Shown here one piece after another: positions 4,920-21,627 of a stretch of 31,945 nt of DNA. A model generated the notes under the pieces. That model ran no database searches, was not told where the DNA came from, and saw only the letters and a program-made list of their open reading frames with translations. Position 1 is the stretch's first letter. Every line of letters begins with the position of its first letter. Source of the stretch: a virus. The stretch lies in the IMG/VR virus record IMGVR_UViG_3300045806_000010, positions 1 to 31,945 of that record. One strand, 5' to 3'. The translations under genes were made by a program, and so were the position numbers.

Positions 4920-6350
4920 TTAAGCGAGAGAAACCGCGATATTTGCCGAGTTGATCGACGGGACTTGATTGATATTGGACTGGATTTTGAACAGCGTGGG
5001 TGAGACCGCATAAATTGTCTCAAGCGCCACGGTCTGCGATGCGCTGACGGTATAGGTTCCGGTCCCGCCATATCCTGATCCGAACGCGATGACCGTCGTT
5101 CCCGAGGAGACTATGCCGCCCGCATCGGTGATCAACTGCCCAACGGCAATCGTGCCGGAAGCGACGCTTGAGACATTCAGCGTCGTCCCTGAAATCGTGC
5201 CGGTAAACGTCGCGGACGGCGTGTTGATGGACCCGATCTGGATAGAGACGATTTGCGCCCACGATCCAAGCGCGGCGATAGGCGCATAATAGCGGCTTGC
5301 CAGAACCTCCGACCCGATGCGTGCGCGCGTCCCTCCGTCGCCGCCAGCGAAAGCGTTGATGACCGCCGATTGAATCAGCGACGCTGCGTTAGATGGGACT
5401 GCGGCCGAAGTTGCGATGGCGACCGCAAAGAAAATCTGCAAGTCGTTCGGAATTTCAAACGAGACGGGATAACTCGGGTAGGGCGGGGAATAGACCGCGC
5501 TTGTATCGTAGACCGTCACTGTCGTGTTGCCGTTATAGGCGCATCCAGGCGCTTTCTTGGTCCAGATCGCCTGAGCGACCGCCGCCGCATTTCCCCCGAC
5601 AACTGCGACATAAAGGCTGTTCGGGTTGAGCGAGACGCCACCGATGGTTTGCGCCGTGGCCGATGTGTTTTCGGTCACATAGGCGTCGAGAACTCCGGAC
5701 ACGGAAAGCACAGCGCCAAGGACGGAGGGGATTGATCCGTTTGAATTCTGCGCGACAGACGCGGCCCTGCGCGCCTCGAACGCAGACGTGGTTTCGACCG
5801 CATTACCGATTGTGCCGCCTTCGCAGGTGACGCTATCCCATCCCGGAATAGATTGATAAATCGACACGGATGTGGACGACGGAATAGGGACTGCGCCCGT
5901 CACCGTGCACGCAAAGGAAAGCGTGATCGACCCGCTTGACGGGATCGTTCCGGCGCCGGTGCAGGCGTAATTATTTCCCGATGAATCCTGAATAAGCTGG
6001 TTGACGGGAATGGTGACGCCGGCAAGCCCCATGCACGAAATTTGCAGCACGGTCGATTGCGCCGGGTTGCGCTCGATGAAATAGATGCGCGCCAAGGCGT
6101 CCTGGTTCCGGCCCTCCGCATAGGCCGGGTCGAACTGGCTCGCCATGTAAAGAAAGGTGTCGTTCACGTTGCCGACGATGGCCGTCAGACTGGACGCAAG
6201 CTGGCCCTGCGGCTCTGTCAATGCAAGATTGAGATCGCCGCCAAAAGCAGTATTTTGGTCAGCCTGGACGCCGGTTAAAATATCGAGTTCCGCCGGCGCC
6301 TGAAAGCCCGTTGCGGCCCATGCGACTTGCGGTACATTGGTTGAAGCCAT
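4920..6350 (-). CDS. Baseplate J-like protein (wedge component, 476 aa)
   Basis: ATG at 6350 lies one base after the stop of the HNH gene. The product resembles Baseplate_J family wedge proteins: an N-terminal region with DILTGVQADQNTAFG and YFIERNPAQSTVLQI, a central Gly/Ser-rich beta region, SAFEARRAASVAQNSNGS followed by VSGVLDAYVTEN (a conserved gpJ segment), and a C-terminal LFKIQSNINQVPSINSANI strand region. Residues about 380-445 are an extra Gly/Thr-rich module ending GGTGTYTV, seen also in three other virion proteins here, placed just before the C-terminal strands. It should be a baseplate wedge subunit next to gp25. The family call is strong. Confidence 0.85.
   Translation of the reverse strand: MASTNVPQVAWAATGFQAPAELDILTGVQADQNTAFGGDLNLALTEPQGQLASSLTAIVGNVNDTFLYMASQFDPAYAEGRNQDALARIYFIERNPAQSTVLQISCMGLAGVTIPVNQLIQDSSGNNYACTGAGTIPSSGSITLSFACTVTGAVPIPSSTSVSIYQSIPGWDSVTCEGGTIGNAVETTSAFEARRAASVAQNSNGSIPSVLGAVLSVSGVLDAYVTENTSATAQTIGGVSLNPNSLYVAVVGGNAAAVAQAIWTKKAPGCAYNGNTTVTVYDTSAVYSPPYPSYPVSFEIPNDLQIFFAVAIATSAAVPSNAASLIQSAVINAFAGGDGGTRARIGSEVLASRYYAPIAALGSWAQIVSIQIGSINTPSATFTGTISGTTLNVSSVASGTIAVGQLITDAGGIVSSGTTVIAFGSGYGGTGTYTVSASQTVALETIYAVSPTLFKIQSNINQVPSINSANIAVSLA
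5016..5213 (-). repeat. Dispersed Gly/Thr domain, copy in gpJ-like protein
   Basis: Codons for about 66 residues (approximately 380-445 of the gpJ-like protein). The pattern is: F-x-G-x-I-S-G-x-x-L-x-V, S-G-x-I-x-V-G-Q, S-S-G-T-x-V-I, then GGTGTYTVSASQTV. The same order of motifs appears at 15063-15479, 16341-16535 and 20758-21165. It interrupts the otherwise normal C-terminal part of gpJ and looks like a separate beta domain inserted in frame. Confidence 0.7.
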
Positions 6351-6351
6351 G

Positions 6352-6783
6352 TCAGTTTCCCTTCGACCAACGCTTGCCGTTTAATATCAATGTTATCGCT
6401 GGTCGAGAAACGCCGTATTCTTTTGCGAGAATGACATGTGCGCCCCTCTCACCTGAAAACTTAGCTCTTATTTCCATGACTTCATTTGCGCTCAGTTTTG
6501 CGCGCCCATGTTTTTCACCGGAATCCCCACGCCCACGCTCGATTTTATCGCGGATATTATCGGCCTGCGTCCCGATGAGAAGGTGTCCTGGATTCACGCA
6601 TCGCGGGTTATCGCATTTGTGGCGAGCAACTAGATTTGCGATGTCTGAGAGGCTTGCTCCATTATAATCGCAATACGCGATCCTATGTGCATATTCGCGT
6701 CGGCCGCCTATTGTGACCCGGCCATATCCATCGGCACGCCTAGGCCCAGTCCAGAGCGCGCAATCATCCCTAGAAACCTGCAC
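6352..6783 (-). CDS. HNH homing-type endonuclease with C-terminal helix-turn-helix
   Basis: A GTG at 6783 is the only reasonable start: the frame is closed by a stop two codons upstream. The gene overlaps the 3' end of the gp25 gene by 14 bases. The first ~80 residues are an HNH_3-type nuclease: CALWTG, GYGRV, AHRIAY, then the zinc/active-site block RHKCDNPRCVNPGHLLIGT and DNIRDKIERGR. Residues about 95-140 (KLSANEVMEIRAKFSG, EYGVSRPAITLILNGKRW) form a helix-turn-helix of the NUMOD type used by homing endonucleases for target recognition. A free-standing homing endonuclease inserted between two baseplate genes is the best explanation. Its target site is unknown. Confidence 0.88.
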   Translation of the reverse strand: MQVSRDDCALWTGPRRADGYGRVTIGGRREYAHRIAYCDYNGASLSDIANLVARHKCDNPRCVNPGHLLIGTQADNIRDKIERGRGDSGEKHGRAKLSANEVMEIRAKFSGERGAHVILAKEYGVSRPAITLILNGKRWSKGN

Positions 6784-7120
6784 TTGTCACTACCCCGTTC
6801 GCATCTTGAACTTGGATTTGTCCGCTGACGACACGGCCTTGAATGGAAGAGATGAAGCACTTGGCGGAAACGACGCCCGGAACCGTCAACGCCGCCGCGA
6901 CGAACTTTGCCTTCATCAAAGAGATGGGCGGGTTTTGTCCGAGGATTTGCTGCCAGTACGGGACGCCCTGCGTCTGGTCGTAATAGACCTCGCCAAGAAA
7001 CGTCCTGATTGCCGAAGCGGCGGATTGCGCCAGCGAATAGGGCTGCGACGCGATGGCGATATTGCCGTTGGCGTCGAGAACCAGATCGTTTGTAGTGCGA
7101 TCAAGTAGAAGTGTTTTCAT
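6770..7120 (-). CDS. Baseplate wedge protein, gp25/gpW-like (116 aa)
   Basis: ATG at 7120 directly follows the stop of the HNH-AP2 gene. The 116-residue product carries the GPW/gp25-type pattern: MKTLLLDRTTNDLVLDANGNIAIAS, SAIRTFLGEVYYDQTQGVPYWQQILGQ, then a C-terminal beta region GVVSAKCFISSIQGRVVSGQIQV. The LGExxYDxxxGVPY segment is the hallmark of this baseplate wedge family, related to T4 gp25. It forms the inner ring of the wedge with gpJ, the next structural gene. Mobile HNH genes lie on both sides, yet the frame is intact and full length for the family. Confidence 0.85.
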   Translation of the reverse strand: MKTLLLDRTTNDLVLDANGNIAIASQPYSLAQSAASAIRTFLGEVYYDQTQGVPYWQQILGQNPPISLMKAKFVAAALTVPGVVSAKCFISSIQGRVVSGQIQVQDANGVVTSAGF

Positions 7121-7642
7121 CTATTTGACCCTTGCAAATTCGCCAAATTTTAGTTTGGCGGCAGTTTCGTATGCTGCGCCAGCAAGTTCGGGTGCGTCAA
7201 AACGGCCTAAATTCAGATAAGACCCATTGGGCTCACGAATGCGAGCGACCCATTTTCTATTTATTTTGTCCCAGCTAACGCCCTTAAATTTGGATTTATT
7301 ATTAGACCTTATCCGAGTATTCCTCGAATTTTCTCTCTGAGACGCCGGTCTCAGATTTGAAATTCTATTGTCTAATGGGTTGCCGTTCTTATGATCGATG
7401 CCGTCTGGAGGAAATTCACCGTAGATAATTAGCCACGATAGGCGATATGACAGATATAACCTCCCATCAATTCTAATGACGCGCCTATACCCACATTCTC
7501 TCTTAAAGAATTGATTGCACCCGGCAGGCGACCCGGTCGCGACACCCCCACGGCCAACTTTCCATTTAAAATTGCCGGTTTCTGGGTTGTAATCCAGCAA
7601 TTGCCGCGCACGGCTCGCGGTGATAAGTTCTCGTTTAGCCAT
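7121..7642 (-). CDS. HNH-AP2 homing endonuclease (173 aa)
   Basis: The ATG at 7642 (MAKRELITASRARQLLDY) is preferred over the GTG at 7693 because an AAGGA lies about ten bases upstream and the family usually starts here. Residues about 20-60 contain the usual GNFKWKVGRGG strand. The HNH nuclease core follows: DGIDHKNGNPLDNRISNLRP, with the conserved D-H-x-N-G-x-x-x-D-N-R-x-x-N-L-R pattern. The C-terminal part (FKGVSWDKINRKWVARI, LGRFDAPELAGAAYETAA) is an AP2/ERF-type DNA-binding domain. The coding sequence looks richer in A and T than neighbouring tail genes, a sign of separate origin. It sits between spike and gp25 and has its own promoter. Confidence 0.92.
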   Translation of the reverse strand: MAKRELITASRARQLLDYNPETGNFKWKVGRGGVATGSPAGCNQFFKRECGYRRVIRIDGRLYLSYRLSWLIIYGEFPPDGIDHKNGNPLDNRISNLRPASQRENSRNTRIRSNNKSKFKGVSWDKINRKWVARIREPNGSYLNLGRFDAPELAGAAYETAAKLKFGEFARVK

Positions 7643-7705
7643 CGTTCCGGTTCCTTCGGGCTGGTGGTTAGGGGCCGCTTGGTGGTGGAACACCTTGCGG
7701 TCCCG

Positions 7706-7734
7706 ATTATATTACTTATGATTACATAAAACAA
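7706..7734 (-). promoter_or_regulatory. Sigma-70-like promoter for the HNH-AP2 gene
   Basis: On the minus strand TTGTTT (7734-7729) is followed by a 17-base spacer and TATAAT (7711-7706). The stretch is AT-rich against a GC-rich background and lies about 65 bases upstream of the ATG at 7642. The fit to the consensus (perfect -10, correct spacing) is the best on this strand in the tail module. Confidence 0.65.
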
Positions 7735-7745
7735 GCAGAGGTTTA

Positions 7746-8354
7746 TTAAGTCCCCGCGTCTGGAACCGGGCCGCCGGCGTGTTTGTGCTGCTGGAGCGTG
7801 ACCGCGTCGCCGCCGCCGAAGCCCGCCGTGATCTTGCCCGTAACGGTCAGGTCGCCGGTGATATTGACGGCCGGAGCGCCCACGATATGCACGCCAGTTT
7901 CGTCGAAGGTGACGCTTTGGGATGGCGTCCCGTTCATGTTGCCGAACCCGCCGAGATAGACGCCATCGGCCAGGTCATGCTGGCGGCGCGAACCGGGGTT
8001 GGCTTGCCCCGCGCTGGCCTTGACCGCCGATATGTCGCGGTCGCTGATCGCCATCAGGCCCTGATCTCCGACCTTCGGCTTGACGACGACGCTGCCATTG
8101 CCGCCGGATGATCCTGAAACCGGGATGCCATGGACAACGCCGTGCGCCGTCGAGTTGCCGGCGCCGTCCACCTGGTTGACGAGCGGCTGAACCGAAACGA
8201 TGAAATTCGGGCTTGTGCCGGTGACGGAGACGATTTTGACCGGAGTGGCGGTGCGGACCTTGGCGAGCCTGCGGTCAATGTGGAAATCGTGGCGGTTGAA
8301 GTCCGAGTTGGACGAGGTGAGGCCGCGTTGTCCGGCTGAGGATTGGTCCGTCAT
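7746..8354 (-). CDS. Baseplate spike protein (gpV / Gp138-like, 202 aa)
   Basis: The ATG at 8354 overlaps the stop of the hub gene (ATGA), so I take MTDQSSAGQRGL as the start. The protein reads as a central membrane-piercing spike: an OB-fold-like N-terminal domain (ATPVKIVSVTGTSPNFIVSVQPLVNQVD; VKPKVGDQGLMAISDRDISAVK), then HDLADGVYLGG, then short beta-helix-like repeats (VTFDETGVHIVG, VNITGDLTVTGKITA). It ends in a His-containing tip (LQQHKHAGG) like the metal-binding apex of gpV-type spikes. It acts at the centre of the baseplate below the hub. The family is well supported; metal binding is inference. Confidence 0.85.
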   Translation of the reverse strand: MTDQSSAGQRGLTSSNSDFNRHDFHIDRRLAKVRTATPVKIVSVTGTSPNFIVSVQPLVNQVDGAGNSTAHGVVHGIPVSGSSGGNGSVVVKPKVGDQGLMAISDRDISAVKASAGQANPGSRRQHDLADGVYLGGFGNMNGTPSQSVTFDETGVHIVGAPAVNITGDLTVTGKITAGFGGGDAVTLQQHKHAGGPVPDAGT

Positions 8355-9217
8355 GGCGCATCGCTCCCCTGGATTGGCGACGCGCTGAGAATGGTGAACC
8401 ATTTCCCGTGCGGAATTTCGCTCTCAAGCTCATGGTCGAGATGAAAAATCGTCCAGTCACCGCAAGCCGGCGTCAGGTCGCTCTTGATCGTCACTTTCCC
8501 GCCCGGCTGGAACGTCGGGTTATAGATGGTTTCGACAATGACGGCGGCTTGATTGAACGCCGGATAGCCGACCATGCCCGTAGCTGGTGAAATAAGAGGG
8601 GTTGAACCCTTGCGCGGCTGGCCTGGTTTCCAGATCGCCAGCGTCCCCTTGTCGATGACGTGTTCAATCCCGGCGTGTTGCGCGAGGGACAGGATTTGAT
8701 TACGCACCGATCCCGCAAGATAGGGATTGGCGATCTTGACGTTGACGCCGTTGTTTTCGAACGTGAGGCCGTTGGCCTGCGCGATCTGCCCCATGATGGT
8801 CGCAACATCGCCGGCGCCTTGAACGCTTGTCGGAGGGGATGCCTTCACGGCGAGATCGCCGCCCGCGACCGCTTCGACCCGGAAACAGACATTCGGCTGT
8901 GATTTGGCGTCAACCCATGCGTAGGAGATGTTGCCGACGAACGCGGTGGACATGCCGTTGATGTCGTCGCCGGCCTGCACCGTAACCTTGTTCTTGCTGA
9001 TGTAATTGATCTGCTTCCCGACCGTCGAAAGCTGGTTCATCATCGACAATTCCATGCCGAAGATCGCCATTTGCAATTGGCCCATCGACGCGCCGCCCGC
9101 GTTGGTGATATGGGCGGAAATGCGCAGGCCCGACAAAGTCGCTTTATTGCCGCCGCCTGCAAAATTTCCGTTCTGCATATCGAACGAAACTGTGATTTTG
9201 CGGTTCGTGAAGGACAT
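8351..9217 (-). CDS. Baseplate hub protein (288 aa)
   Basis: ATG at 9217. The start MSFTNRKITVSFDMQNGNFA and the segments LSGLRISAHITNAGG, LQMAIFGMELSMMNQLSTVG and DLTPACGDWTIFHLDHELES match baseplate hub proteins of DUF3383-type myoviruses (functionally like T4 gp27 / Mu gp44). The product should form the trimeric hub that joins tube and spike. The gene order plug, hub, spike agrees, and its stop overlaps the spike start. The gene is separated from the plug gene by an antisense membrane-protein gene, so its transcription from upstream must cross that insert unless a separate promoter exists; I see none. Confidence 0.82.
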   Translation of the reverse strand: MSFTNRKITVSFDMQNGNFAGGGNKATLSGLRISAHITNAGGASMGQLQMAIFGMELSMMNQLSTVGKQINYISKNKVTVQAGDDINGMSTAFVGNISYAWVDAKSQPNVCFRVEAVAGGDLAVKASPPTSVQGAGDVATIMGQIAQANGLTFENNGVNVKIANPYLAGSVRNQILSLAQHAGIEHVIDKGTLAIWKPGQPRKGSTPLISPATGMVGYPAFNQAAVIVETIYNPTFQPGGKVTIKSDLTPACGDWTIFHLDHELESEIPHGKWFTILSASPIQGSDAP

Positions 9218-9230
9218 ATGCGCTGCCGCC

Positions 9231-9259
9231 TTGTCGCCAATGGACTGGGCGACTATGAT
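9231..9259 (+). promoter_or_regulatory. Sigma-70-like promoter for the plus-strand moron gene
   Basis: TTGTCG (9231-9236), a 17-base spacer and TATGAT (9254-9259) lie about 30 bases upstream of the ATG at 9290 on the plus strand, with a GGGAGA ribosome-binding site between. The -35 overlaps the region just upstream of the hub gene start on the other strand, so the two divergent genes share this short interval. Confidence 0.65.
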
Positions 9260-9289
9260 CCCGCCCTAATTTTTAACGGGAGAGATAGG

Positions 9290-9715: not shown

Positions 9716-10017
9716 GCCAGTTCAGACGCCGCCCAATAGGTCAGCAAATAGCGAGTCCCGATGCCCGTATAAACCGGGTCGGTGCTCCCTTGCGTATCGA
9801 CAAAGGCGATGTCGCCCGAAAACCCGAGATAGGCGCTGCGCACAATCAGACAAAGGTTCTTGGCCGGAACGCCGGCGATGACGATCGCGTTGTCAATGTA
9901 GAGATCGACAAAAACGCCGTAAAACCTCTGATAGACGTTGATCTGGCAGTTTTGGCCGCCAAGTTGGACAGTCACGAATTGCGACGGAACGGCCTTTAGC
10001 GGGATGATTACCGACAT
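9712..10017 (-). CDS. Baseplate plug protein (101 aa)
   Basis: The ATG at 10017 (MSVIIPLKAVPSQFVTVQLG) is the natural start; the open frame extends further upstream, but that part overlaps the preceding gene and is arginine-rich shadow. The sequence fits the small phage baseplate plug family: QFVTVQLGGQNCQINVYQR, VDLYIDN, LIVRSAYLGFSGDIAFVD, TDPVYTGIGTRYLLTY. These proteins sit between tube end and hub in contractile phages. It follows the preceding baseplate gene after seven bases. Full length for the family. Confidence 0.82.
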   Translation of the reverse strand: MSVIIPLKAVPSQFVTVQLGGQNCQINVYQRFYGVFVDLYIDNAIVIAGVPAKNLCLIVRSAYLGFSGDIAFVDTQGSTDPVYTGIGTRYLLTYWAASELA

Positions 10018-10024
10018 TGGACGC

Positions 10025-10768: not shown

Positions 10769-12904
10769 CTATTCTGGACCTTGGTTGGCTTGCGACGCAA
10801 ACGAACTGCGCTCAATTGCCTTTGGCAACTCTTTGGCTATTCCGGCCGCGTCTGTCGCCTGCGTCTGGACCGTGATCGACCCGATATGCGTCTCGGTTGA
10901 AGACGAACTGCTGCTTGTGCGCGTGCTGCTGCTGTTGGTGACGCTTGGACTGGGCGTGACGCTTGGGACCGGAGGCTTTACGGGCGCGCCGCCGGGCTTC
11001 CATTCCCGCGCCGCCTTTGCCGCCCGCTCGGAGTAGGACGGGTTCAGGAACCGATCCGACCCGGCCCACGGGCTTGGCCCGCGCTTGCCGCGCCTCACCC
11101 AATCCCGATAGAGAGCGATGGCGGCCTTTGCATTGACGTGCGGGTCATAGAGGTCTTCGTTGCTCTTGAGCCCCCACATTTTACGCCGCTGAGGCCCCAT
11201 GCCCCCGATCATGTTGATCTGCCAGAGACCATAAGACAGATCGCGACCTGAAAAGTTGTGTGCGCCGGCATGGCCGCGGGACTCACCGCCCATGTGTGCT
11301 CCGATGAAAGCCGCCTCATCCGGCGTTGCGCCCTCGCTGCGCAGGAGCGCGGCGCCTTGCTCGGGTGTGAGACCGTCTCCTTTGCCGTAATCTCGCCCAC
11401 CACCCGCGCCCGGAGAACTGCCGCCGCCACCGCCCGGACCTGACGCCCCGCCGCCACCGCCCGGACCTGACGCCCCGCCGCCACCGCCCGGACCTGACGC
11501 CCCGCCGCCACCGCCCGGACCTGTCGATCCGTTGACGCCCTTTCCAAAAGACTGGTCGCCGCCGCCGTTCGTCAATATGACCGGCAGCGGATTGCCTCGG
11601 CCTACCGGACGGCCTTCCATCTGGACGCCCTCCGCATGGGCGCCGCTGACCCCGAAAAGCTCGTTCAATCTCTCCCAAATGCCCTTCGACTTCGGAGGCT
11701 CGGCGCCCGGCGCATCGTGCTTGTCGCGGCCATATTTCTTCTGGCGCTCCAGCTCATTCTCGCCATTGTTTAGCGGCGTCGGCTTCAGGACCGCGCCGGC
11801 GGCGATGGCGCCCGCTATGATCGGGTTGAGCGCCAATGCTGCTGCTGCGGCCGCCGCCGCGCGCAATGCCGTCACCATCCCCCAAATGCCCGTGACGATG
11901 CCTGCGATTTTGGAAACAGCCCAAACGCCGAAAAGCGCTTCGCCGATCTTGACCCATCCGCCAACGGAATCAGCCGCCTTGTTGGCGCTAGTGGTGAAGT
12001 CATCGACCCCCTTGACGGTCTTGTCCCAATCGATCCCGTCGATCCAGTCGCTGAGCTGCTTGATTACCGCATTGAACTTTTCCTGATTTTCCTTTTTGCC
12101 CAGCCATGCGTCGAAACGCTCCATCGCATTGATCAGCGCGGGGGAAAGCGAAGTCCAGATAGCGCGGCCGAAATGCACGGCCTCTTGCTCAAGTTCATTC
12201 CACGCTTTTTGCAAGTCCTGCGCGGCGGCGATATCTTTCGAGGACGGCCCGAGCTTTTTCAGCCGTTCGATCTCGGCGCCAATGCCCGCGCCGTATTTAA
12301 TCATCATGTTGACGGTATCGGGATCAATCCCGAGTTGCCGCCCGAGCCAGCTTGCCTTCGCCTGATCGTGCGCCGCAACCGCTTTCAAATTCGCGGCAAT
12401 ATCGACCATCGACTTGGAGACGCCGTGGTTCAGGTCGATGGTGCGGCCGCCCGCCGCCTGAAGCTGATAGAAAACATCCGGCAGCGCCTTGCCGCGCAAA
12501 CGGAGGTCTTCGATTTTGTCGGACAGCGACTGGAACGACGCCGAGGTCGCGGCGGAAGACCCGCCCACGCGCTCAACAGCCAACCCCCACGCTGCAATGG
12601 TCTGTGGCGATTCACTCAGCGAACCGGAGAACCGCCCCAATGCGGCGTCGCCCGCCGTGATGTCTTCGATGAATTGCTTGACGCCTCTGCCGCCGAGGAA
12701 GACCGCGTAAAGTTCCAGCGCCTGCCGCGCGACCTTGGCGAGCGCCTGGGCCGCCTTGTCGCTGGATTCCTCGATGCCCTTGCCGGACTTGAGTGCCTCT
12801 TCCTTCGTCTTGACGAAGGCTTCGGTGGCGTCTTTTTGACCCTTCTGGAATTTTGCAGGATCAAGCTGCAATTCCAAAATCAGCGAGTCAATAATTGTGG
12901 GCAA
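10769..12904 (-). CDS. Tape measure protein fused to lytic transglycosylase domain (711 aa)
   Basis: A TTG at 12904, with AAGGA nine bases upstream, begins MPTIIDSLILELQLDPAKFQKG, a usual tape-measure start. Residues 1-310 are mostly helical and coiled-coil-like. Residues about 316-378 hold hydrophobic segments (EALFGVWAVSKIAGIVTGIW and an Ala-rich helix) that may insert in the host membrane. Residues about 460-495 are a tandem GPGGGGGAS linker. Residues about 510-640 resemble a lysozyme-like/transglycosylase domain: AAFIGAHMGGESRGH with likely catalytic Glu541, then LSYGLWQINMIGG and NAKAAIALYRDW. The tail is Ser-rich. It sets tail length and probably cuts peptidoglycan during DNA entry. It directly follows the chaperone genes, as expected. 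Confidence 0.9.
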   Translation of the reverse strand: MPTIIDSLILELQLDPAKFQKGQKDATEAFVKTKEEALKSGKGIEESSDKAAQALAKVARQALELYAVFLGGRGVKQFIEDITAGDAALGRFSGSLSESPQTIAAWGLAVERVGGSSAATSASFQSLSDKIEDLRLRGKALPDVFYQLQAAGGRTIDLNHGVSKSMVDIAANLKAVAAHDQAKASWLGRQLGIDPDTVNMMIKYGAGIGAEIERLKKLGPSSKDIAAAQDLQKAWNELEQEAVHFGRAIWTSLSPALINAMERFDAWLGKKENQEKFNAVIKQLSDWIDGIDWDKTVKGVDDFTTSANKAADSVGGWVKIGEALFGVWAVSKIAGIVTGIWGMVTALRAAAAAAAALALNPIIAGAIAAGAVLKPTPLNNGENELERQKKYGRDKHDAPGAEPPKSKGIWERLNELFGVSGAHAEGVQMEGRPVGRGNPLPVILTNGGGDQSFGKGVNGSTGPGGGGGASGPGGGGGASGPGGGGGASGPGGGGGSSPGAGGGRDYGKGDGLTPEQGAALLRSEGATPDEAAFIGAHMGGESRGHAGAHNFSGRDLSYGLWQINMIGGMGPQRRKMWGLKSNEDLYDPHVNAKAAIALYRDWVRRGKRGPSPWAGSDRFLNPSYSERAAKAAREWKPGGAPVKPPVPSVTPSPSVTNSSSTRTSSSSSSTETHIGSITVQTQATDAAGIAKELPKAIERSSFASQANQGPE
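11421..11523 (-). repeat. 27-bp tandem repeat coding a glycine linker
   Basis: Three exact 27-base units and a fourth, partial unit lie end to end (11421-11447, 11448-11474, 11475-11501, 11502-11523). In the tape measure frame each unit encodes GPGGGGGAS. The array forms the flexible linker before the transglycosylase domain and, being exact, is probably variable in copy number. Confidence 0.95.
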
Positions 12905-14000: not shown

Positions 14001-15992
14001 TTATTCAACGTCAAGGCTATTCAGTGTCAGCTTGTGAATGCTTCCGCCGTCACAATACCAGAAATAAATAACCGGGCTTGTTCTTGCCTGACGCACCTGC
14101 GGCGTGGCTGGAATGACAAGGAAATACCATCCGCGCTGCGAAATGACCTGAGCCGGCGTAGTAAGCCCACCCGCTTCGGTGGTGATTTCCAGAATTTGCG
14201 TCGAAGAGAGCGTCACGCCCGGCTGGATGGCGCCGAACAAAAGCGCCTGCTGGATGGTCGTCAAGCATGTGGCTTCGATCATCGCATATCCCGTGTAATT
14301 ATACGGGATCGATCCAATCGAGGTCAGGAGATTGACCAGCGCCAGCTGAAGAGAGTTGTTGAGCCAGATCTGGTTGGCGTAGGTGTTTGCCCATTGGAAC
14401 ACGCCAGAAACGCCGCCCTCGGCAAAATAGACGAAGTTGGCGTTGGCTGTCGCGTAGGCGCCCACGAAGTTATAGCCATTGGCCGTCAGATTTGCGGCGG
14501 TTCCAGAATTGGTGACGCCGGCGACAAGGCCGGATTGGGTTTTGAACTTGTGAGTGATATTGCCGTTCGGTGCGGAATAGTTGACAGAGGCGATCATGCC
14601 GGAAACGAACACGTCATGGTTCAAATCGGTCGGGCTGTAAATCAACTCAGTCCCGTTATAGTTGGCCTGAGTGAGCAGATAGCCAAACGAGGCAGGCGCC
14701 GAACTGCTGAGCGTCGGCGCGATGTCGGAATCTCGGGCGACATAAAGATAACGGTCATTGGTTGTGTTGACCCACGCCGAGAACAATAGCTTTTGCGCGC
14801 CGCCCGCTACGCCATCGTCCGGGTCGAAGTCGAAGAAGAAGCTCGCCCAATTCTGCGTGATCGCCGTAAGGCCCGCCATAAAGACGCCGGGAGAGAGCGC
14901 GGCCGAACCCTGCGACAGAACGGCGCCGGTGGCTGTGGTCAGGAATAGCGACCCCGAAAGCGTTCCCGTAGCGGCGGCGATGGTAGACGCTGATCCGGTA
15001 ATGCCGGAAATGATGATGATGCCGCCCGAAACGCTGTCATAAGCCACGGTGCAGTTGGTGGCAGAAGCGGTCAACGTGCCGGTGCCGGAAGCGGTCTGCG
15101 TCAGATTGACTACATAGGTTCCGATCCCGCCAGACGTGCCGGTCAACTGCGCCATGATCTGCGAACCAGCCGTGACGGAGGTTCCGGTCAATGTCTGGCC
15201 CGGCGAAAGCGTGCCGGTGGACACGGCAGTCGAAACCGTCAGCAGGCCCCACGATTCGGTGATCGTGATCGAAGTCGCAATCGCGTGCGCAATCGAAACA
15301 GCATAAGTACCAACGCCGCCCAGCGCGCCACCATTCGCTGTCGATGTGAGCTGAGCGACGATCTGCGTTCCCGCCGTGATGCCGGAACCTGTGATGACGC
15401 CGCCGATTTCAATCGTTCCGGACGTGGTGCCGGTGACGGTCAAAACGTCGTTATCGATGGTCCCGGCGAAGATAGCGGCCGTGCCTGCGGCAATCGACCA
15501 GTTGGTCGTCAAAACCGTCGCCTCTACCGGCTCCGTGGTGTTCAATGCGGTCTGGATCAATCCGGCCGCCGCCGAATAGGACGTGGCGGCCAGCAGATTG
15601 AGCGTCGCCGCGCTGTGCAGATATCCGTCGATGGTGACATAAAGCGAGCCGCTCAATCCCTGGATATTGGCGACACTGAGGGAGCCGAAGCCGGAACCGC
15701 CGCGCATCCATGCCGCAACGGCGGTCTGGGGATATTGCGCAGCTAGAAGCGCGGCCGGCGTAGCCGTGGCGCCCGTATAGCCGGCGAAATAGACTTGCGC
15801 CTTGGCGTATTGCGTCGAGGACAGCCCGAAGTAAGACCCGACCGTCGCCGCATTGGGGAATGACTGCACCGTGTTGATCGGAATACGCGAATTCTGCGTG
15901 AGCATCAGCCCATTGAGATTGAGGGCGGCGCCGCCCGCGCTGATGACGCCGGGGAGAACTTGAACGTCATATGAGGCCGGAATGGTGCTCAA
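14001..15992 (-). CDS. Contractile tail sheath protein, DUF3383 type (663 aa)
   Basis: A TTG at 15992 with AAAGGAT about nine bases upstream starts MSTIPASYDVQVLPGVISAG. The N-terminal ~170 residues (LMLTQNSRIPI, VGSYFGLSS, YAKAQVYFAGYTGA) and C-terminal ~280 residues (WASFFFDFDPDD, DRYLYVARDSDIAPTL, EGGVSGVFQWANTYANQIWLNNSLQLALVNLL) are the DUF3383 sheath family. Residues about 172-310 are two extra Gly/Thr-rich modules ending GGVGTYAV and GGIGTYVV, which lengthen the protein beyond usual sheaths of this family. They probably face the outside of the tail, since they interrupt the fold in a sheath region that often varies between phages. The sheath call is strong; the location of the insert is inference. 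Confidence 0.87.
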   Translation of the reverse strand: MSTIPASYDVQVLPGVISAGGAALNLNGLMLTQNSRIPINTVQSFPNAATVGSYFGLSSTQYAKAQVYFAGYTGATATPAALLAAQYPQTAVAAWMRGGSGFGSLSVANIQGLSGSLYVTIDGYLHSAATLNLLAATSYSAAAGLIQTALNTTEPVEATVLTTNWSIAAGTAAIFAGTIDNDVLTVTGTTSGTIEIGGVITGSGITAGTQIVAQLTSTANGGALGGVGTYAVSIAHAIATSITITESWGLLTVSTAVSTGTLSPGQTLTGTSVTAGSQIMAQLTGTSGGIGTYVVNLTQTASGTGTLTASATNCTVAYDSVSGGIIIISGITGSASTIAAATGTLSGSLFLTTATGAVLSQGSAALSPGVFMAGLTAITQNWASFFFDFDPDDGVAGGAQKLLFSAWVNTTNDRYLYVARDSDIAPTLSSSAPASFGYLLTQANYNGTELIYSPTDLNHDVFVSGMIASVNYSAPNGNITHKFKTQSGLVAGVTNSGTAANLTANGYNFVGAYATANANFVYFAEGGVSGVFQWANTYANQIWLNNSLQLALVNLLTSIGSIPYNYTGYAMIEATCLTTIQQALLFGAIQPGVTLSSTQILEITTEAGGLTTPAQVISQRGWYFLVIPATPQVRQARTSPVIYFWYCDGGSIHKLTLNSLDVE
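15063..15479 (-). repeat. Dispersed Gly/Thr domain, two tandem copies in sheath
   Basis: Sheath residues about 172-245 (AIFAGTIDNDVLTVTG to GGVGTYAV) and 246-310 (GLLTVSTAVSTGTLSPGQTL, TAGSQIMAQLTGT, GGIGTYVV) are two copies of the same module. They share the order L-x-V, S-G-T-L-x-x-G, G-T/S-x-I-x-A-Q-L-T, G-G-x-G-T-Y. The two differ enough to be an old duplication. Confidence 0.8.
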
Positions 15993-16016
15993 TGGAGTGA
16001 TCCTTTTTGGATTCGA

Positions 16017-16736
16017 TTAGCCAGAGAAGCCGTAAAGTTCGGCCTCAAGTTCAGTTGCGAATTGTTGACCCAGGACGGTCACAGTTTGATTGATTTGCAA
16101 AACAGCATTGATGACCCATCGGGTTTCAATCTGATCTTCCGCATTGACAAACGGGACTTGCTTCGGGTCGTCCGCGTAAAGCGGGGAGACTGAGTTGTTC
16201 AACCCAGCAAACTGCCACGCCGCATAGTTATCGCGGAACAGCGTCGAGATGGTTTGCGCATAGTCCGCGCTGAGAGGCCCATGAACGTCGATCTGGAACG
16301 TCTGCTGTGTCGGCTGCATCATGTTGGCAAATCCGGAATAGATCGGCCCTGACGCGACGCTCTGCGCATTGTTGACGGTATAGGTTCCGGCGCCTCCCGA
16401 CCCTGTGCCAAGCGCGGTGATGACCGTGTTCAACGAAATGTTGGCGCCATAAACTGGCGACCCGGCTTGTAGCGAGGAATTCGTCGGAGCGGCGGTGATC
16501 GTCAGCGTCTGCCCGCTGATCGCGCCCGTATAGGCCGCGTCCACATAAGCGTCGATGTTGGTGGATATGCGATTGCGCAAGATCGGCGTGAATACGACGA
16601 AGTTCGCGCCTTCCGGCTCAGGAACCCGGTTTTGCTGTCCAAGAAGGACTTCTATTCCCGTTGGCAGGATCGAAATCAGAAAAGATCGCAGTGCGGCCTG
16701 AATGGCGCTCTGGTTCGGCGTGATCGAGACAGGCAT
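16017..16736 (-). CDS. Neck/tail terminator protein with inserted Gly/Thr domain (239 aa)
   Basis: The ATG at 16736 (MPVSITPNQSAIQAALRSFL) overlaps the stop of the preceding gene (TGATG). Residues 1-65 (LPTGIEVLLGQQNRVPEPEGANFVVFTPILR) and 133-239 (TQQTFQIDVHGPLSADYAQTIST, DDPKQVPFVNAEDQIETRW) together form a compact family of phage neck or tail-terminator proteins encoded just before the sheath. Residues about 68-132 are an extra module (YTGAISGQTLTIT to GGAGTYTVNNAQSV) that splits that domain. The protein probably joins the connector to the tail. Assignment to the terminator role follows from position and family style. Confidence 0.72.
   Translation of the reverse strand: MPVSITPNQSAIQAALRSFLISILPTGIEVLLGQQNRVPEPEGANFVVFTPILRNRISTNIDAYVDAAYTGAISGQTLTITAAPTNSSLQAGSPVYGANISLNTVITALGTGSGGAGTYTVNNAQSVASGPIYSGFANMMQPTQQTFQIDVHGPLSADYAQTISTLFRDNYAAWQFAGLNNSVSPLYADDPKQVPFVNAEDQIETRWVINAVLQINQTVTVLGQQFATELEAELYGFSG
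16341..16535 (-). repeat. Dispersed Gly/Thr domain, copy in neck protein
   Basis: Residues about 68-132 of the neck protein: YTGAISGQTLTIT, LQAGSPVYG, NTVITALGTG, then GGAGTYTVNNAQSVASGPIY. The final segment is very like the gpJ copy (GGTGTYTVSASQTVALETIY). It interrupts an otherwise continuous domain. Confidence 0.75.
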
Positions 16737-17110
16737 CAGGCATTGTCCTGAAGGACAACGCCAACGCTGCACCAATCCGGGAAATATTCAAAAACGATCA
16801 CGACTTTCCACACGGAACCATCGGGAAGCGTAAAAAGATCGCCGCCTTTTCCCTCCGACCGGATCATGCCGTCCACTTCTCCGGTGATATAGATACGCCG
16901 CTTTTCCCCCTGGATTTGCAGGCCGTCCATCTGGACGATCTCGTTATAGGCTAGCGGCTGGACTTGTCCATGAACAGTGACTGGATTGGCGTAGGATGGC
17001 GCGCGGGTTCCGTCCGGGGCGGTCGCGTAGCCGGTGGAAACTCTGAGAATGAGTTCGGTTTTCGGGTTGATCGCGCCAATTGCGCCGGAGACAATCCCAT
17101 GTAGATTCAT
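16736..17110 (-). CDS. Head-tail connector / tail completion protein (124 aa)
   Basis: ATG at 17110 overlaps the stop of the upstream gene (TGATG), and its own stop overlaps the next start, so it is tightly coupled. The 124-residue product (LILRVSTGYATAPDGTRAPSY, PVTVHGQVQPLAYNEIVQMDGLQ, EKRRIYITGEVDGMIRSEGKGG, VIVFEYFPDWCSVGVVLQ) looks like the small beta proteins of the head-tail joining module. No enzyme motif. It lies between the gp10-like protein and the neck protein, so a connector or stopper role is likely, though the specific counterpart is not certain. Confidence 0.72.
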   Translation of the reverse strand: MNLHGIVSGAIGAINPKTELILRVSTGYATAPDGTRAPSYANPVTVHGQVQPLAYNEIVQMDGLQIQGEKRRIYITGEVDGMIRSEGKGGDLFTLPDGSVWKVVIVFEYFPDWCSVGVVLQDNA

Positions 17111-17562
17111 CAGGATTTATCCTCAACGACGTGGGTGATCGAATTAAGCATCACCGAGGTATCAACCAATTGCTTGTCAAAGCCCTTTTTGGCGATGGTC
17201 ACAGGCGACAAGGGCGGCCCGACATAGACGGTGATCGCCTCTTTCAACTGGCCGCCAATCGCCTCGCCCGTCTGATCAAGCGTCTTGTGGGCGTCGTAAT
17301 CTGTCGATTTCAGCAGGCCAGCGACAGCGTCAGGCCATTCGCCAGACTTGTCATTGATCATGCCGCGAAAGAACGGACGCGGCGGCTGATTGTGTGCAGG
17401 AACGCCGAACTCGTTCAGCGCCGCGACGAGAGGAACGCTTGTTCCGTCTGGATAAGTCGCGCCTTCCATGAACCCGATCTGCACCGACGAAGCGTTGGTC
17501 GCGTTCTTGGCGATTTCCGCCAAAGCCTTTTCAAGCTTGTCGCCGCCCTTGATGGTGGCCAC
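17110..17562 (-). CDS. HK97 gp10-like head-tail connector / tail component (150 aa)
   Basis: The start is a GTG at 17562 (MATIKGGDKLEKALAEIAKN); no ATG is near and no strong ribosome-binding site is seen, so coupling to the preceding gene is likely. The segment SSVQIGFMEGATYPDGTSVPLVAALNEFGV followed by QPPRPFFRGMI is the signature of HK97-gp10-like and related virion morphogenesis proteins, which join the connector to the tail. The C-terminal IGGQLKEAITVYVGPPLSPVTIAKKG is also usual. The order DUF4054, gp10-like, completion protein matches other phages of this type. Confidence 0.8.
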   Translation of the reverse strand: MATIKGGDKLEKALAEIAKNATNASSVQIGFMEGATYPDGTSVPLVAALNEFGVPAHNQPPRPFFRGMINDKSGEWPDAVAGLLKSTDYDAHKTLDQTGEAIGGQLKEAITVYVGPPLSPVTIAKKGFDKQLVDTSVMLNSITHVVEDKS

Positions 17563-17565
17563 GGG

Positions 17566-17994
17566 TCAGCGCCATGGTCCGATGTTGAAATTGCGCTGCC
17601 GCCCGACGCGATATTGCATGGTGCGATAGCCGACCGTCGCCGCCCAATACGAACTGCCGTATTTTGTCGTTTGCCACCACTGCGCCGATCCTGGCGGATA
17701 GTCGTTTTGCACGGAGACGGACACGCTGCCTTCGCTCGCGCTGGATATACGCCCGACCAGTGGCGAAACGGGGTCTCCGTCGCTGTCCAGCGCATTCAGC
17801 GCGGCGATATGCGCCGTCGCCATGTTCATCAGGATCAATTGCTGGCCGGCGTCGCTGACCGGCCCGGAGCCATCATTGGCGTGATAAAGCCCGGCTTCTG
17901 AGAAGAATGCCGCCAGTTGCGCCGTACCCACGCCCTGCAATTCCGGATAACGTACTGCAAAGGCGCGGAGGTTGAACGAAACAGTGGCGCCCAT
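17566..17994 (-). CDS. DUF4054 head-tail connector protein (142 aa)
   Basis: The ATG at 17994 (MGATVSFNLRAFAVRYPELQ) with GAGGG eight bases upstream is the start; the longer frame upstream is arginine/serine-rich shadow. The product matches DUF4054: F-x-x-R-Y-P-E-L at the N-terminus, an MATAHIAALNAL helix, then GRISSASEGSVSVSVQND and the C-terminal QWWQTTKYGSSYWAATVGYR. DUF4054 proteins are adaptor-type connectors below the portal. Full length for the family; normal position after the capsid genes. Confidence 0.87.
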   Translation of the reverse strand: MGATVSFNLRAFAVRYPELQGVGTAQLAAFFSEAGLYHANDGSGPVSDAGQQLILMNMATAHIAALNALDSDGDPVSPLVGRISSASEGSVSVSVQNDYPPGSAQWWQTTKYGSSYWAATVGYRTMQYRVGRQRNFNIGPWR

Positions 17995-18004
17995 AATCAA
18001 ACCC

Positions 18005-18340
18005 TCACTTGTAATAGGCAATATCGAGGGTCGCGCTGCCAGTCTGCGGGATGAACTGGATTGCCGACAGCGAGCCGGTATAAACGAAAGGAGCCGCGCC
18101 CACTGCAATCGGCATTCCGGCCGAAGCGGTCGGCGCAGTCCCGTCGTCACGATAGCGCACGGCCTGCGTCTCGACGGTGATCACTGCAAACGTCGCGCCG
18201 CTCGGAGCAGTCAGCGCCTGAGCGGTGGAGAATGCGGAAATCTGCTGATAACCGAGCGGGGTCTGGCGGTTTGGCGGGTCGGCATAGGCGGCCGAGGGAA
18301 GGGACGCAAACAAGAGAACGGAGGCGAGAAGTTGTTTCAT
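18005..18340 (-). CDS. Exported small protein in connector module (111 aa)
   Basis: The ATG at 18340 has GAGGA seven bases upstream and is preferred over a GTG at 18346. Residues 1-20 (MKQLLASVLLFASLPSAAYA) are a textbook Sec signal peptide with positive start, hydrophobic core and an A-x-A cleavage site before DPPNRQT. The mature ~90 residues are beta-rich: ATFAVITVETQAVRYRDDGT, MPIAVGAAPFVYTG, LSAIQFIPQTGSATLDIAYYK, similar in style to small beta-sandwich proteins of phage structural clusters. A signal peptide on a protein made inside the capsid-connector operon is unusual. It could be an envelope-located phage product or a virion protein in which the N-terminus serves another purpose. Confidence 0.75.
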   Translation of the reverse strand: MKQLLASVLLFASLPSAAYADPPNRQTPLGYQQISAFSTAQALTAPSGATFAVITVETQAVRYRDDGTAPTASAGMPIAVGAAPFVYTGSLSAIQFIPQTGSATLDIAYYK

Positions 18341-18350
18341 CGCCACATCC

Positions 18351-18992
18351 TCAGTTCATGCCAGATACGACGAACAGATTGGCGGTGATATCGCTCACAA
18401 CCGTAGTGGCGTTGCCTGTGAGGGCAATGATGATATTGCCGGCCTCGTTGAGCGTCAGCGCCTGCGGAGAAACGAGCGAAGCTATCGCCCCACCAATCTG
18501 CGCCTGTTGGTGGACTCCGATCTGGGTATTGGAACCAGCTGCGCCATATTTGTAAACTTCGCCGCCAATCGCCCACCCGGCGCCAGAGGTCGTTACGGCG
18601 CCTGTGTCAGCAATCGTAACGCCGCCGACAACGGCAGACCCGATGACGGCCGAGGTGCAACCGACAATGATCTTGATGCGCTTATTATTCGCGGTCACGG
18701 CGAACGAGCCCTGAGCGGAAATGGCGATACCGCGATTCGACTGCGATGTGGAGAGAACGCCCGTCGAGTTGAAATCGGTTAGCGACACGCCGTCAAACGA
18801 TCCCGGAGGAAGCGTGAACGTCATCAGAACATTATCCGCGCCAGTGGCCCCGGGCTGGACGCCGGCTGAAACCTGACGATAGAGGGTACCCTCGTCCTGC
18901 ATCGAAACGCCGCCGCCGCCGAAAAGAGTCGCGGCCGTGTTTGGCATCCCATACCAAGGGATTTGCCCTTTGGCGTCGTCAAAAATAGCCAT
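18351..18992 (-). CDS. Hypothetical virion protein (213 aa)
   Basis: ATG at 18992 with an excellent AAGGAG seven bases upstream, which suggests a highly made protein. The product begins MAIFDDAKGQIPWYGMPNTAATLFG and is rich in Gly, Ala, Ser and Val with beta character throughout (GDNVLMTFTLPPGSFDG-like and NNKRIKIIVGCTSAVIG-like strands). No signal peptide, membrane segment or catalytic motif. Its place between the capsid and the connector genes and its strong ribosome-binding site fit a capsid-associated or head-fibre protein. No family name can be supported. Confidence 0.65.
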   Translation of the reverse strand: MAIFDDAKGQIPWYGMPNTAATLFGGGGVSMQDEGTLYRQVSAGVQPGATGADNVLMTFTLPPGSFDGVSLTDFNSTGVLSTSQSNRGIAISAQGSFAVTANNKRIKIIVGCTSAVIGSAVVGGVTIADTGAVTTSGAGWAIGGEVYKYGAAGSNTQIGVHQQAQIGGAIASLVSPQALTLNEAGNIIIALTGNATTVVSDITANLFVVSGMN

Positions 18993-19029
18993 TTATGTTC
19001 TCCTTAGATCGATGCCGAGGACGGCTGAA

Positions 19030-19473
19030 TTAGTCTTTCTTCGCCGTCTCAATCGCGGAGAGATTGGCGGAATTGGCGCGCGGGATGCGCCTGTCTTTGC
19101 CGGGAACCAGTGGTTCAAGCCCGGACAGCGTGTCTTTCTTTTCGCGCGCTTCGTCATGCGCGACCTGGCGCTTGTCGCTGGCGAAAATGAGATGGTTTTT
19201 TACGGCGTCGTGATCAGCGTTCTGATCCAGCCAACGCGCGAAGAAATCCGCATCGACATTCGGCGTCAGCGCATAGCCGCCCGAAATCGCCGTCTTTGGC
19301 GCTTCGCCAAACTTCGTCGCCGGGCCATGTATTTTGACCGGCTCGCCTGCGGGGGACGCGCGCTTGACGGTTCTGAATCCGCCGCCCATGACGGGCTCAT
19401 CATGCTCGGCCCAATCGAACACACGAAGCATGAGGCCGTTGGGAATCTTGCATGCGACCGTCGTGAAAGCCAT
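19030..19473 (-). CDS. Conserved-type hypothetical phage protein after capsid (147 aa)
   Basis: ATG at 19473 with AAGGAT about seven bases upstream. Residues 1-70 (MAFTTVACKIPNGLMLRVFDW, EPVKIHGPATKFG, ISGGYALTPNVDADFFARWLDQN) form a folded domain; the C-terminal third is charged and probably helical (DKRQVAHDEAREKKDTL). It follows the major capsid gene after about 90 bases. Proteins of this size and start occur at this position in alphaproteobacterial phages, but I do not know a function. A head-completion or decoration role is a guess from location. Confidence 0.65.
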   Translation of the reverse strand: MAFTTVACKIPNGLMLRVFDWAEHDEPVMGGGFRTVKRASPAGEPVKIHGPATKFGEAPKTAISGGYALTPNVDADFFARWLDQNADHDAVKNHLIFASDKRQVAHDEAREKKDTLSGLEPLVPGKDRRIPRANSANLSAIETAKKD

Positions 19474-19565
19474 GATGTATATCCTTGAATTGCGCGGGAT
19501 AAACGCCCGCTAATGCCCGTCGTGCGGGACAAAAGACCGAAGCCGGATTGTTGATTGATTGAAGC

Positions 19566-20654
19566 TTAGACGCCAATCATCGAGGCGATGTTGGCGGGCT
19601 GGCGGATGATCGCGCCCCAGGTGCCGAACGACACCTTTTGTTTGAAGCTCGAAGTCGCCGGGATAATGCGCCCAGCCCTCATCTTCTCGGAGAACGCCGC
19701 ATAGCCGGTTTCCTGACCATCGATCGACTTGACGATCAACTGGACGAAGTTGCCGCCCTGAACGCCCTGCGGATTGCTGGCCGAATAGGCGTTATACTGC
19801 ACCATCGTTTCAACGGTCAGTTTCGGGAAATTCTTCTTGAGAAGGTCCGAGACATTGACGTTGAACGAGTTGGTTGCGGTCAGCGCGACGCCGGCCTGCG
19901 TCGGGACGACGAGAACCATATCGCTGTCCTCTTCGACGAGGCCGCCCGTCTGGATCACCGCCTGGAGATACAGCGCCTGAATATCGGCGTAGATTTCATT
20001 GGCGGTGGCGACGATCTGACCGTTATTGACCCATTTCACGCCGCCGTAAGCCTTGGCGGCCGGGGTCAGCGAGGCGTTGAGCGCCGGGTCGTTCGACATG
20101 CCGTAGTTCTGCAAGCCGGCGATGCCGAACACATAGGACAGGTTCAGGAATTTGTTGACCACAGTGGCGGCGGCCACGTCGAGTTCCGACACCCAATTGA
20201 TGCGAGCCAGGCCGGCGCGCTCCAATTCCAGATCGCCGTATTCCTTCATCGTCTGACCGATGTAATTCTGGCGCTGCGGGAATACGGTGTTGACGCCGGT
20301 GCGGCCATTCTCAGCGAAGTCGTCATAGGACGAGATTTCGCCGGTATGCTCCACGGTCGGGAACAGCGCGGTGATGTCGGTCAGCGACCCCTTGCGGACT
20401 TCTCCCAAGATCGTCGCGGCCTTGTTCGGGGCGAACAGGACTTTGAAGACCTTCGGGTCGGTCCAATAGGTCAAATAGGCCGGAATGCCGCCGTTGGTGG
20501 TGGTGGACAGCGCGGGCTGCGCATCCATCGCCAGCGAGAAATTGTTGCGGTATTCGTCGGGGAGATAGGACTGCGCGCCGGGGAAATAAGCGCCGTTCTG
20601 TTCGTGGATGGCCGAATGCGCTTCCCACGCGGCCTTTGCTTCCTGGAAGTTCAT
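19566..20654 (-). CDS. Major capsid protein, DUF2184-like (362 aa)
   Basis: The ATG at 20654 (MNFQEAKAAWEAHSAIHEQN) has AAAGGA eight bases upstream; the longer open frame would overlap the decoration gene and is not needed. The sequence reads as an HK97-fold major capsid protein of the DUF2184 type: PAYLTYWTDPKVFKVLFAPNKAATILGE, a central helix region AGLARINWVSELDVAAATVV, LVVPTQAGVALTATNSFNV, and the C-terminal FSEKMRAGRIIPATSSFKQKVSFGTWGAIIRQP. It lies after scaffold/protease and decoration genes, the expected order. No N-terminal scaffold domain is present; the scaffold function is probably the acidic domain of the DUF2213 protein. Confidence 0.85.
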   Translation of the reverse strand: MNFQEAKAAWEAHSAIHEQNGAYFPGAQSYLPDEYRNNFSLAMDAQPALSTTTNGGIPAYLTYWTDPKVFKVLFAPNKAATILGEVRKGSLTDITALFPTVEHTGEISSYDDFAENGRTGVNTVFPQRQNYIGQTMKEYGDLELERAGLARINWVSELDVAAATVVNKFLNLSYVFGIAGLQNYGMSNDPALNASLTPAAKAYGGVKWVNNGQIVATANEIYADIQALYLQAVIQTGGLVEEDSDMVLVVPTQAGVALTATNSFNVNVSDLLKKNFPKLTVETMVQYNAYSASNPQGVQGGNFVQLIVKSIDGQETGYAAFSEKMRAGRIIPATSSFKQKVSFGTWGAIIRQPANIASMIGV

Positions 20655-20679
20655 GGGATAATCCTTTGCCGCGTTGGAA

Positions 20680-21627
20680 TTAGTAGGCCGTGCCGACGAT
20701 CTTGACGAGTTCGCCGGCGAGTCCGGAAGAGGCCGCAACCCATCCGGTCTGCACGTTGGTGGCGGCGGTGATGGTGCCGCTGGACGCCGTGGCCGTCAGG
20801 GTGATGTAAGTGCCCGCGCCGCCCGCGCCGGTCAGCGATGCGCCGTTGGAGGCATTGGCGAGGATGGACGACCCGGCTGCAACCGAGGTGCCGGACAGAG
20901 TATCGCCAATCGAGAATGTGCCTGTGACGGTGCCGCCAAGGGTCAGAAGGCCATAGCCGCCGCCGATGGCGGTTCCCGAGGCCACGATCTGTTCGGCCGT
21001 GGTCAGCGCATAGGTGCCAACGCCTCCCGTGGTGCCGGTCAACTGCGAGGCAATCGAGCCGGTAGCATTGGAAGTCAGCACCGCGCCGGGATACAGCGTG
21101 CCGGACGTGACCAACGCGACCGTGAGGATGTTTCCGTTGACCGACCCGACCACAGCAAAGGTCTGCGCGGAAATCGAGAACGTGGTCGATGTCGCCGTCG
21201 AAGCCGCGCCAGCAGCCGCGAAGGAGATCGCGCCGTTGGCGTAGGACGCATAGGCGTACTGACCGGGGAGCGCCTGCGTCGTCCCCTCATTCTTGGCGAA
21301 TATGCCGCCACCGTTGAGAACGGCGGTCGGGAAGCCGGCAGGGATGACCATGCTCGATTCCGCGAGATAGGCGGTGATCAGCGCCTGCTGCTGGCGATGG
21401 ATGATGCCGGCCGGAACGCCCGTGCCGTAGTTGTTCACAGCGGCGGGGGCGCCGTTGGCGTCGGCGGTTGAATAGGACAACCACACAGCGCGGCCGATGG
21501 TGGCGCCGGACGTGCCTGCGACAAGGCCAGCGGCGCCCGCGTCAACGAACGAGCGCGGGTTGCCGTCGCTGAAGTCGCCCCACACGCCAATGGCGGGCTG
21601 GATCTGGACAGAATTCGGAAAAGGCAT
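20680..21627 (-). CDS. Capsid decoration / structural cement protein (315 aa)
   Basis: ATG at 21627 with AGGAG seven bases upstream. Residues 1-135 (QPAIGVWGDFSDGNPRSFVDAG, AVWLSY, VPAGIIHRQQQALITAYLAESSMVIPAG, GGIFAKNEG) are the structural cement / gp24-type decoration domain, a small protein that coats the capsid. The rest is two Gly/Thr-rich modules (residues about 155-220 and 223-290) with GGVGTYAL and GGAGTYIT motifs, of the kind also found in sheath, neck and baseplate proteins. Usual cement proteins end near residue 150, so this one carries a large extra outer part. Confidence 0.8.
   Translation of the reverse strand: MPFPNSVQIQPAIGVWGDFSDGNPRSFVDAGAAGLVAGTSGATIGRAVWLSYSTADANGAPAAVNNYGTGVPAGIIHRQQQALITAYLAESSMVIPAGFPTAVLNGGGIFAKNEGTTQALPGQYAYASYANGAISFAAAGAASTATSTTFSISAQTFAVVGSVNGNILTVALVTSGTLYPGAVLTSNATGSIASQLTGTTGGVGTYALTTAEQIVASGTAIGGGYGLLTLGGTVTGTFSIGDTLSGTSVAAGSSILANASNGASLTGAGGAGTYITLTATASSGTITAATNVQTGWVAASSGLAGELVKIVGTAY
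20758..21165 (-). repeat. Dispersed Gly/Thr domain, two copies in decoration protein
   Basis: Residues about 155-220 (FAVVGSVNGNILTVALVTSGTL to GGVGTYALTTAEQIVASGT) and 223-290 (GLLTLGGTVTGTFSIGDTLSGTSVAAGSSI to GGAGTYITLTAT). The second copy has the GLLT start of the second sheath copy (GLLTVSTAVSTGTL), suggesting that modules were exchanged as pairs. Confidence 0.8.

Follow-up and report, generated by a model that had tools for sequence, protein, structure and literature searches.

Why should one stretch of viral DNA encode the same short segment in four different virion proteins, and what might that segment do there? The window, meaning the whole stretch analysed (31,945 bases; virus record IMGVR_UViG_3300045806_000010), comes from a contractile-tailed, prophage-type virus whose genes form a minus-strand run from head to baseplate. 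A sequence-only reading had placed the same module twice in the capsid decoration protein, once in the neck protein, twice in the tail sheath and once in gpJ. All six copies are present, with slightly corrected coordinates. The four host proteins and their modules are as follows.

4920-6350, minus strand: gpJ-like baseplate wedge protein with one module (PF04865 Baseplate_J, E 3.8e-12; solved homolog E217 gp44)
5007-5213, minus strand: module in gpJ (aa 380-448 of 476), just before the conserved C-terminal strand
14001-15992, minus strand: tail sheath with two modules (PF11863, DUF3383, E 4.5e-109)
15255-15476, minus strand: first module in the tail sheath (aa 173-246 of 663)
15063-15254, minus strand: second module in the tail sheath, in tandem (aa 247-310 of 663)
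16017-16775, minus strand: neck (tail terminator) protein with one module (PF23961, E 4.4e-19, in two stretches); its true start may lie about 13 codons inside the listed ORF
16332-16538, minus strand: module in the neck protein (aa 80-148 of 252)
20680-21627, minus strand: minor capsid or decoration protein with two modules (PF23982, E 8.2e-22 over aa 5-165; phrog_2122 minor head protein)
20959-21159, minus strand: first module in the decoration protein (aa 157-223 of 315)
20764-20958, minus strand: second module in the decoration protein, in tandem (aa 224-288 of 315)

Elsewhere in the window, two putative HNH-type homing endonuclease-like ORFs lie amid the baseplate genes (6352-6783 and 7121-7693, both minus strand), the latter with an apparently AP2-like C-terminal part. 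An ORF of 490 aa upstream of the terminase genes (28708-30180, minus strand) resembles ISL3-family transposases. The predicted tape measure protein (10769-12904, minus strand) contains a run of tandem repeats rich in Gly (GGGGGASGP units), and its end appears to be a lysozyme-like region.

One module family and its predicted fold

Each about 68 residues long, the six modules are homologous; their composition is simple and Gly/Thr/Ser-rich, and the consensus from a wider set reads AxFTGSISGTTLTVTAVxSGxxxVGQxxxGxGVxAGTxITALGTGTGGxGTYTVSxSQTV. A profile search with an alignment of the copies had been suggested as a check on their kinship. Using profiles built with one protein's copies left out at a time, we regained the left-out copies of every protein (gpJ, E 2.7e-9; sheath, 1.3e-7; neck, 5.4e-11; decoration, 9.2e-9). 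In a composition-preserving chance test, the best score among 3000 shuffled modules was 12.5 bits, against 27.9 bits for the left-out gpJ copy, 32.4 bits for the neck copy and 15.0-21.8 bits for single sheath or decoration copies. The codon pattern for G-G-x-G-T-Y occurs six times in the window, where 0.03 occurrences would be expected, and only at the six modules. A search of the window with a six-copy profile found no seventh copy in the record.

The AlphaFold2 model of the neck module, made with an alignment of 112 module sequences, is a compact all-beta structure (pLDDT 94.2, pTM 0.83) that spans about 70 residues and has its four main strands at residues 4-19, 31-34, 41-45 and 54-71. The strand positions make it most likely that the two long strands, the first and the last, are paired. 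For the full decoration protein, a model from a different alignment showed a similar strand order in the module region; the long strands are continuous from the host part through both modules, and the host domain is poorly modelled (mean 68.9). In a fold search, the two models match many of the same viral proteins, and the matches of the neck module include an HK97-type major capsid protein (TM 0.87), a P22-gp10-like protein (0.87) and fibre proteins. Structure prediction, also proposed earlier as a check, has thus yielded a confident neck model, a decoration model containing two copies, and overlapping fold matches between them; the models cover the neck and decoration copies, and the sheath and gpJ copies would share the fold on the strength of their homology.

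Insertion into normal protein families

The module-free comparison set consisted of Pantoea phage PA-1, Acetobacter phage phiAO1, Burkholderia phage Bcep781, Aeromonas phage vB_AsaM-56 and a Helicobacter pametensis prophage. Where aligned, their proteins lack the module and measure 172-183 aa (neck), 491-501 aa (sheath), 393-422 aa (gpJ) and 162-167 aa (decoration); the window proteins, after subtraction of the modules, measure 183, 525, 407 and 183 aa, respectively. The PA-1 neck homolog, without an insert, has 183 aa, and the gpJ homologs of phiAO1, PA-1, the H. pametensis prophage, Bcep781 and AsaM-56 are all without the module. No module emerged from a sensitive profile search that covered the fetched regions of the comparison-set records and of E217. 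Since module-free relatives have module-free lengths, the modules represent insertions into otherwise normal families, and by these alignments the insertion is clean in all four. Segments integral to each family should be found in its members; instead, relatives lack them and are shorter by about the length of the modules. The sequence-only reading had the modules interrupting family domains in the neck, sheath and gpJ, as is the case, and needed correction for the decoration protein, where the modules are internal too, lying between the PF23982 family domain and a conserved final stretch.

The solved sheaths E217 gp31 and Pa193 gp32 align to the window sheath before and after the insert, and the alignment places the insertion point at residues 154-156 of E217 gp31. 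This site falls within the region homologous to residues 91-210 of the Pa193 sheath, a flexible domain outside the core (PMC11042391). Another DUF3383 sheath (locus L083, 4346-6172) has, roughly 20 residues from the module site, an insert unrelated to the module, about 110 residues long and with a weak FN3 resemblance (E 0.001 to neogenin). This sheath region therefore seems to be a hot spot that accepts surface domains. At locus L109 (4420-5109), a decoration protein of the E217 gp24 / Pam3 gp6 cement family has a shorter insert, GQPITGAGIPANTYLVSVTGTTAVMS, which resembles the middle of the module and is perhaps a sister variant of the domain.

Both the site and the number of modules vary among relatives. 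The gpJ of locus L188 shares the module site of the window gpJ, and those of six other loci (L027, L054, L156, L084, L123 and L165) have the module at a different site upstream. The necks of L170 and L180 revealed a second module site. Relatives of the sheath, neck and decoration proteins have zero to three copies, and sheath relatives have zero, one or two at the site used in the window. Two syntenic prophages illustrate this variation: that of Rhizobium sp. ASV20 has two copies in the decoration protein, two in the neck (one at a new N-terminal site), two in the sheath and one in gpJ, and that of Paraburkholderia elongata has three in the decoration protein, one in the neck, one in the sheath, one in gpJ (at the other site) and one in a GDSL esterase. 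In these two whole genomes (8 and 11 Mb), every copy lies within one prophage region, and in a sample of the Rhizobium family any copy was found in 2 of 298 genomes. Within the contractile-tail group, the four proteins gain or lack modules independently (L109, L110, L123, L152 and L161), and these mixed loci rule out that all four must carry modules together. The two gpJ sites, the second neck site and the range of zero to three copies per protein favour an add-on over a part required for assembly. Apparent divergent inserts in the sheath and neck ORFs of L161 were rejected, as the extra length lies upstream of the likely start. A search with the neck protein for related loci returned only the near-identical contig L005.

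Distribution and age of the copies

A motif scan for G-T-G-G-x-G-T-Y-T-V over viral contigs and bacterial and archaeal genomes gave at least 120 stretches in the former and 58 in the latter. An iterated profile applied to these loci collected 285 copies in 202 ORFs at 164 loci, a survey that is biased to copies with the core motif and so overstates motif conservation. After module masking, the host ORFs formed 75 clusters, an upper bound because some single-member clusters are fragments. The recognised hosts are mainly virion structural or surface proteins. They comprise major capsid, lambda-gpD-type decoration, SU10-type adaptor and Hc3 head-closure proteins; two kinds of sheath, baseplate gpJ, the neighbouring baseplate DUF2612, and phage tail and fibre proteins; and, further, proteins with collagen repeats or laminin-G-type lectin domains, a GDSL esterase and PilY1. 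A bacterial PilY1-type protein of 1691 aa (L217, 4158-9230; the same gene as L185) has four tandem modules, which indicates that the domain is not confined to viruses. Sphingopyxis flava encodes three module-bearing paralogous proteins on three contigs (L134, L140 and L155), and around the one module locus examined there (L216) no genes matched the window phage. Using Foldseek, we also observed matches of the module to two collagen-repeat proteins of Indivirus ILV1 (A0A1V0SCQ2 and A0A1V0SDM6), with TM up to 0.89 and, for one, 41% identity.

Neither Pfam nor NCBIfam contains a model for the module. When the 112 modules were compared with Pfam, Ig, Big and FN3 families appeared at chance level only (Big_6, two members, E 0.19; Big_1, one member, E 0.3), a FeoA match (nine members, best E 0.012) was likewise treated as chance, and no known carbohydrate-binding family was among the matches at E ≤ 1. 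PHROG 21413 and PHROG 38233 were each matched by 109 of the 112 modules (best E 1.4e-20 and 1.1e-18, respectively). Searches of deposited phages by tblastn with the modules yielded nothing or two partial matches and were not counted as negatives: a profile detected full modules in both of the partly matched records, so that low-complexity filtering is the likely cause of the misses. In the open-access literature, we found no description of the motif or of an equivalent promiscuous non-Ig virion domain.

When modules from different host families are compared, fourfold sites are identical at a rate of 0.26-0.29, against 0.25 expected from composition, and the rate stays in this range whatever the protein identity, also among pairs sharing 75% or more. 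Saturation of synonymous sites is seen even between modules that are 78% identical as proteins. The retention of 50-80% protein identity while silent sites are saturated implies constraint at the protein level and speaks, in this sample, against a recent wave of copying; the comparison argues for old copies under such constraint rather than a recent burst. We rejected recent duplication within the window, since in 14 of the 15 pairs of copies the synonymous sites agree no better than chance. The neck-gpJ pair is above chance (16 of 23 sites; P 0.002, about 0.03 after correction for 15 pairs), which is only a hint that these two copies may share DNA ancestry. The earlier description of the module as spreading is therefore apt in the evolutionary sense (two gpJ sites, zero to three copies, dozens of host families), and no recent copying of DNA was seen.

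Proposed surface adhesion, its alternatives and known systems

On balance, and with a little more confidence than doubt, we infer that the module is a promiscuous surface add-on for weak multivalent adhesion, working like phage Ig-like domains. The six segments are copies of one small autonomous all-beta domain, whose long N- and C-terminal strands would pair and so bring its ends together. With adjacent ends, we propose, the module could slot into a surface loop or hairpin and leave the host fold undisturbed. Since the decoration protein, neck, sheath and baseplate wedge all carry modules, much of the outside of the particle would bear the same domain. The modules would project from the particle surface, an exposure suggested by the position of the sheath site in the flexible outer region of Pa193. 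Many weak contacts of low specificity, with the host cell surface or the surrounding extracellular polysaccharide, could then raise the chance of productive attachment, as has been proposed for phage Ig-like domains. The weak binding to cells or a mucus-like matrix suggested by the sequence-only reading is plausible. We counted in favour of adhesion the fibre, lectin-type, collagen-repeat, esterase and PilY1 hosts, the way four proteins of one virion gain and lose modules independently, and the FN3-like insert at a nearby place in the L083 sheath. Counted against it were the absence of a match to a known carbohydrate-binding family, the capsid association of the sole credible PDB match, and the all-or-none presence of modules in adaptor and head-closure proteins.

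The capsid-associated match fits a role as structural cement, in which the modules, by bracing or bridging adjacent subunits, would lend stability to head, neck and tail and would not bind the host. The match is chain 1 of 8eci, from Arthrobacter phage Bridgette (TM 0.68 by query length, 27% identity), for which the probability is 1.00 but the E value 0.065, leaving relatedness uncertain. This 124-residue stand-alone protein is probably a capsid cement protein, given its size and the dimeric cementing proteins of the Bridgette capsid (PMC13033339). Strict co-occurrence at podovirus-like loci, where adaptor and head-closure proteins both carry modules in 17 cases, neither in 3 and only one of them in 0 (the loci are related and do not amount to 20 independent events), would fit contacts between modules, and inserted beta domains can stabilise rings, as does YSD1 domain2 (PMC8718954). 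However, the proteins of the contractile-tail group gain and lack modules independently, close relatives build the same parts without them, and modules also occur in fibres, esterases and bacterial PilY1, where such a lattice is absent. We therefore consider cement unlikely, albeit a serious contender.

It is considerably less probable that the module is a mere passenger: compact and soluble, its ends side by side, it would be tolerated anywhere and spread by illegitimate recombination with no selected function. The many host families and sites and the variable copy number might be explained in this way, but saturated fourfold sites beside 50-80% protein identity point to constraint, part of which folding alone could explain, and the absence of the module from other genes of the window, among them those for the major capsid protein, the tape measure and the tail tube, is unlike random landing. 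Finally, low-complexity Gly/Thr-rich linkers native to each family could share a simple composition, which probably also hides the modules from tblastn through the filter, yet coincidence of this kind is hardly credible given profiles that beat same-composition shuffles, a confident predicted fold and insert-free relatives in all four families.

Beyond the adhesive add-on proposed for this particle, we tentatively entertain, with rather more doubt than belief, a wider reading: this non-catalogued domain might serve as a general surface module of virions, both in contractile-tailed and podovirus-like phages from many bacterial phyla and, it appears, in Indivirus, a giant virus of protists, with a class of ligand distinct from that of Ig-like domains. 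The module accounts for unexplained extra length in certain structural genes of phages and offers annotation a further domain, one that low-complexity filtering may have hidden. Natural relatives with zero to three copies make the add-on role directly testable.

Several known systems invite comparison. The two PHROG families matched here (38233 is annotated as tail fiber protein) are whole-protein families, mostly of unknown function, in which the module forms one internal stretch of each profile and is not described as a domain. The Bridgette protein, the best match among solved structures, stands alone, whereas the module is inserted. In the 936 lactococcal phages, neck and tail proteins of a single virion bear added carbohydrate-binding modules (PMC6669499); those are recognised as carbohydrate-binding, whereas the present module matches no such family. 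That unrelated phage proteins can share domains is generally known (PMC10684548).

A close parallel is provided by the Ig-like domains of phages (Big_1, Big_2 and FN3; Fraser et al. 2006, as cited in PMC6867891), reviewed as promiscuous virion add-ons in PMC8718954. Like them, the module is a small beta domain added to unrelated virion proteins and optional between relatives, as seen in the insert-free relatives of four families and the dozens of host families, and weak carbohydrate contacts, proposed for the Ig-like domains, are likewise proposed here. The sequence-only reading had drawn this comparison for one domain type in four virion proteins, and the likeness in use is supported, although the module is not itself Ig-like by Pfam (best Big match E 0.19) or by fold search, with no Ig or FN3 domain among the 50 best PDB fold matches listed for the neck module. 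It differs further in being mostly an internal insertion, whereas the tail-tube Ig-like domains of that review are C-terminal, and in that a single particle has it in sheath and neck as well as in head and baseplate. Promiscuous virion add-ons are thus a known idea; new is a non-Ig family with neither a Pfam or NCBIfam entry nor a description in the literature searched. Phage Ig-like domains revealed that optional surface modules are common to virions, and their role is still argued; the module described here would be another such family, independent and non-Ig but put to the same use.
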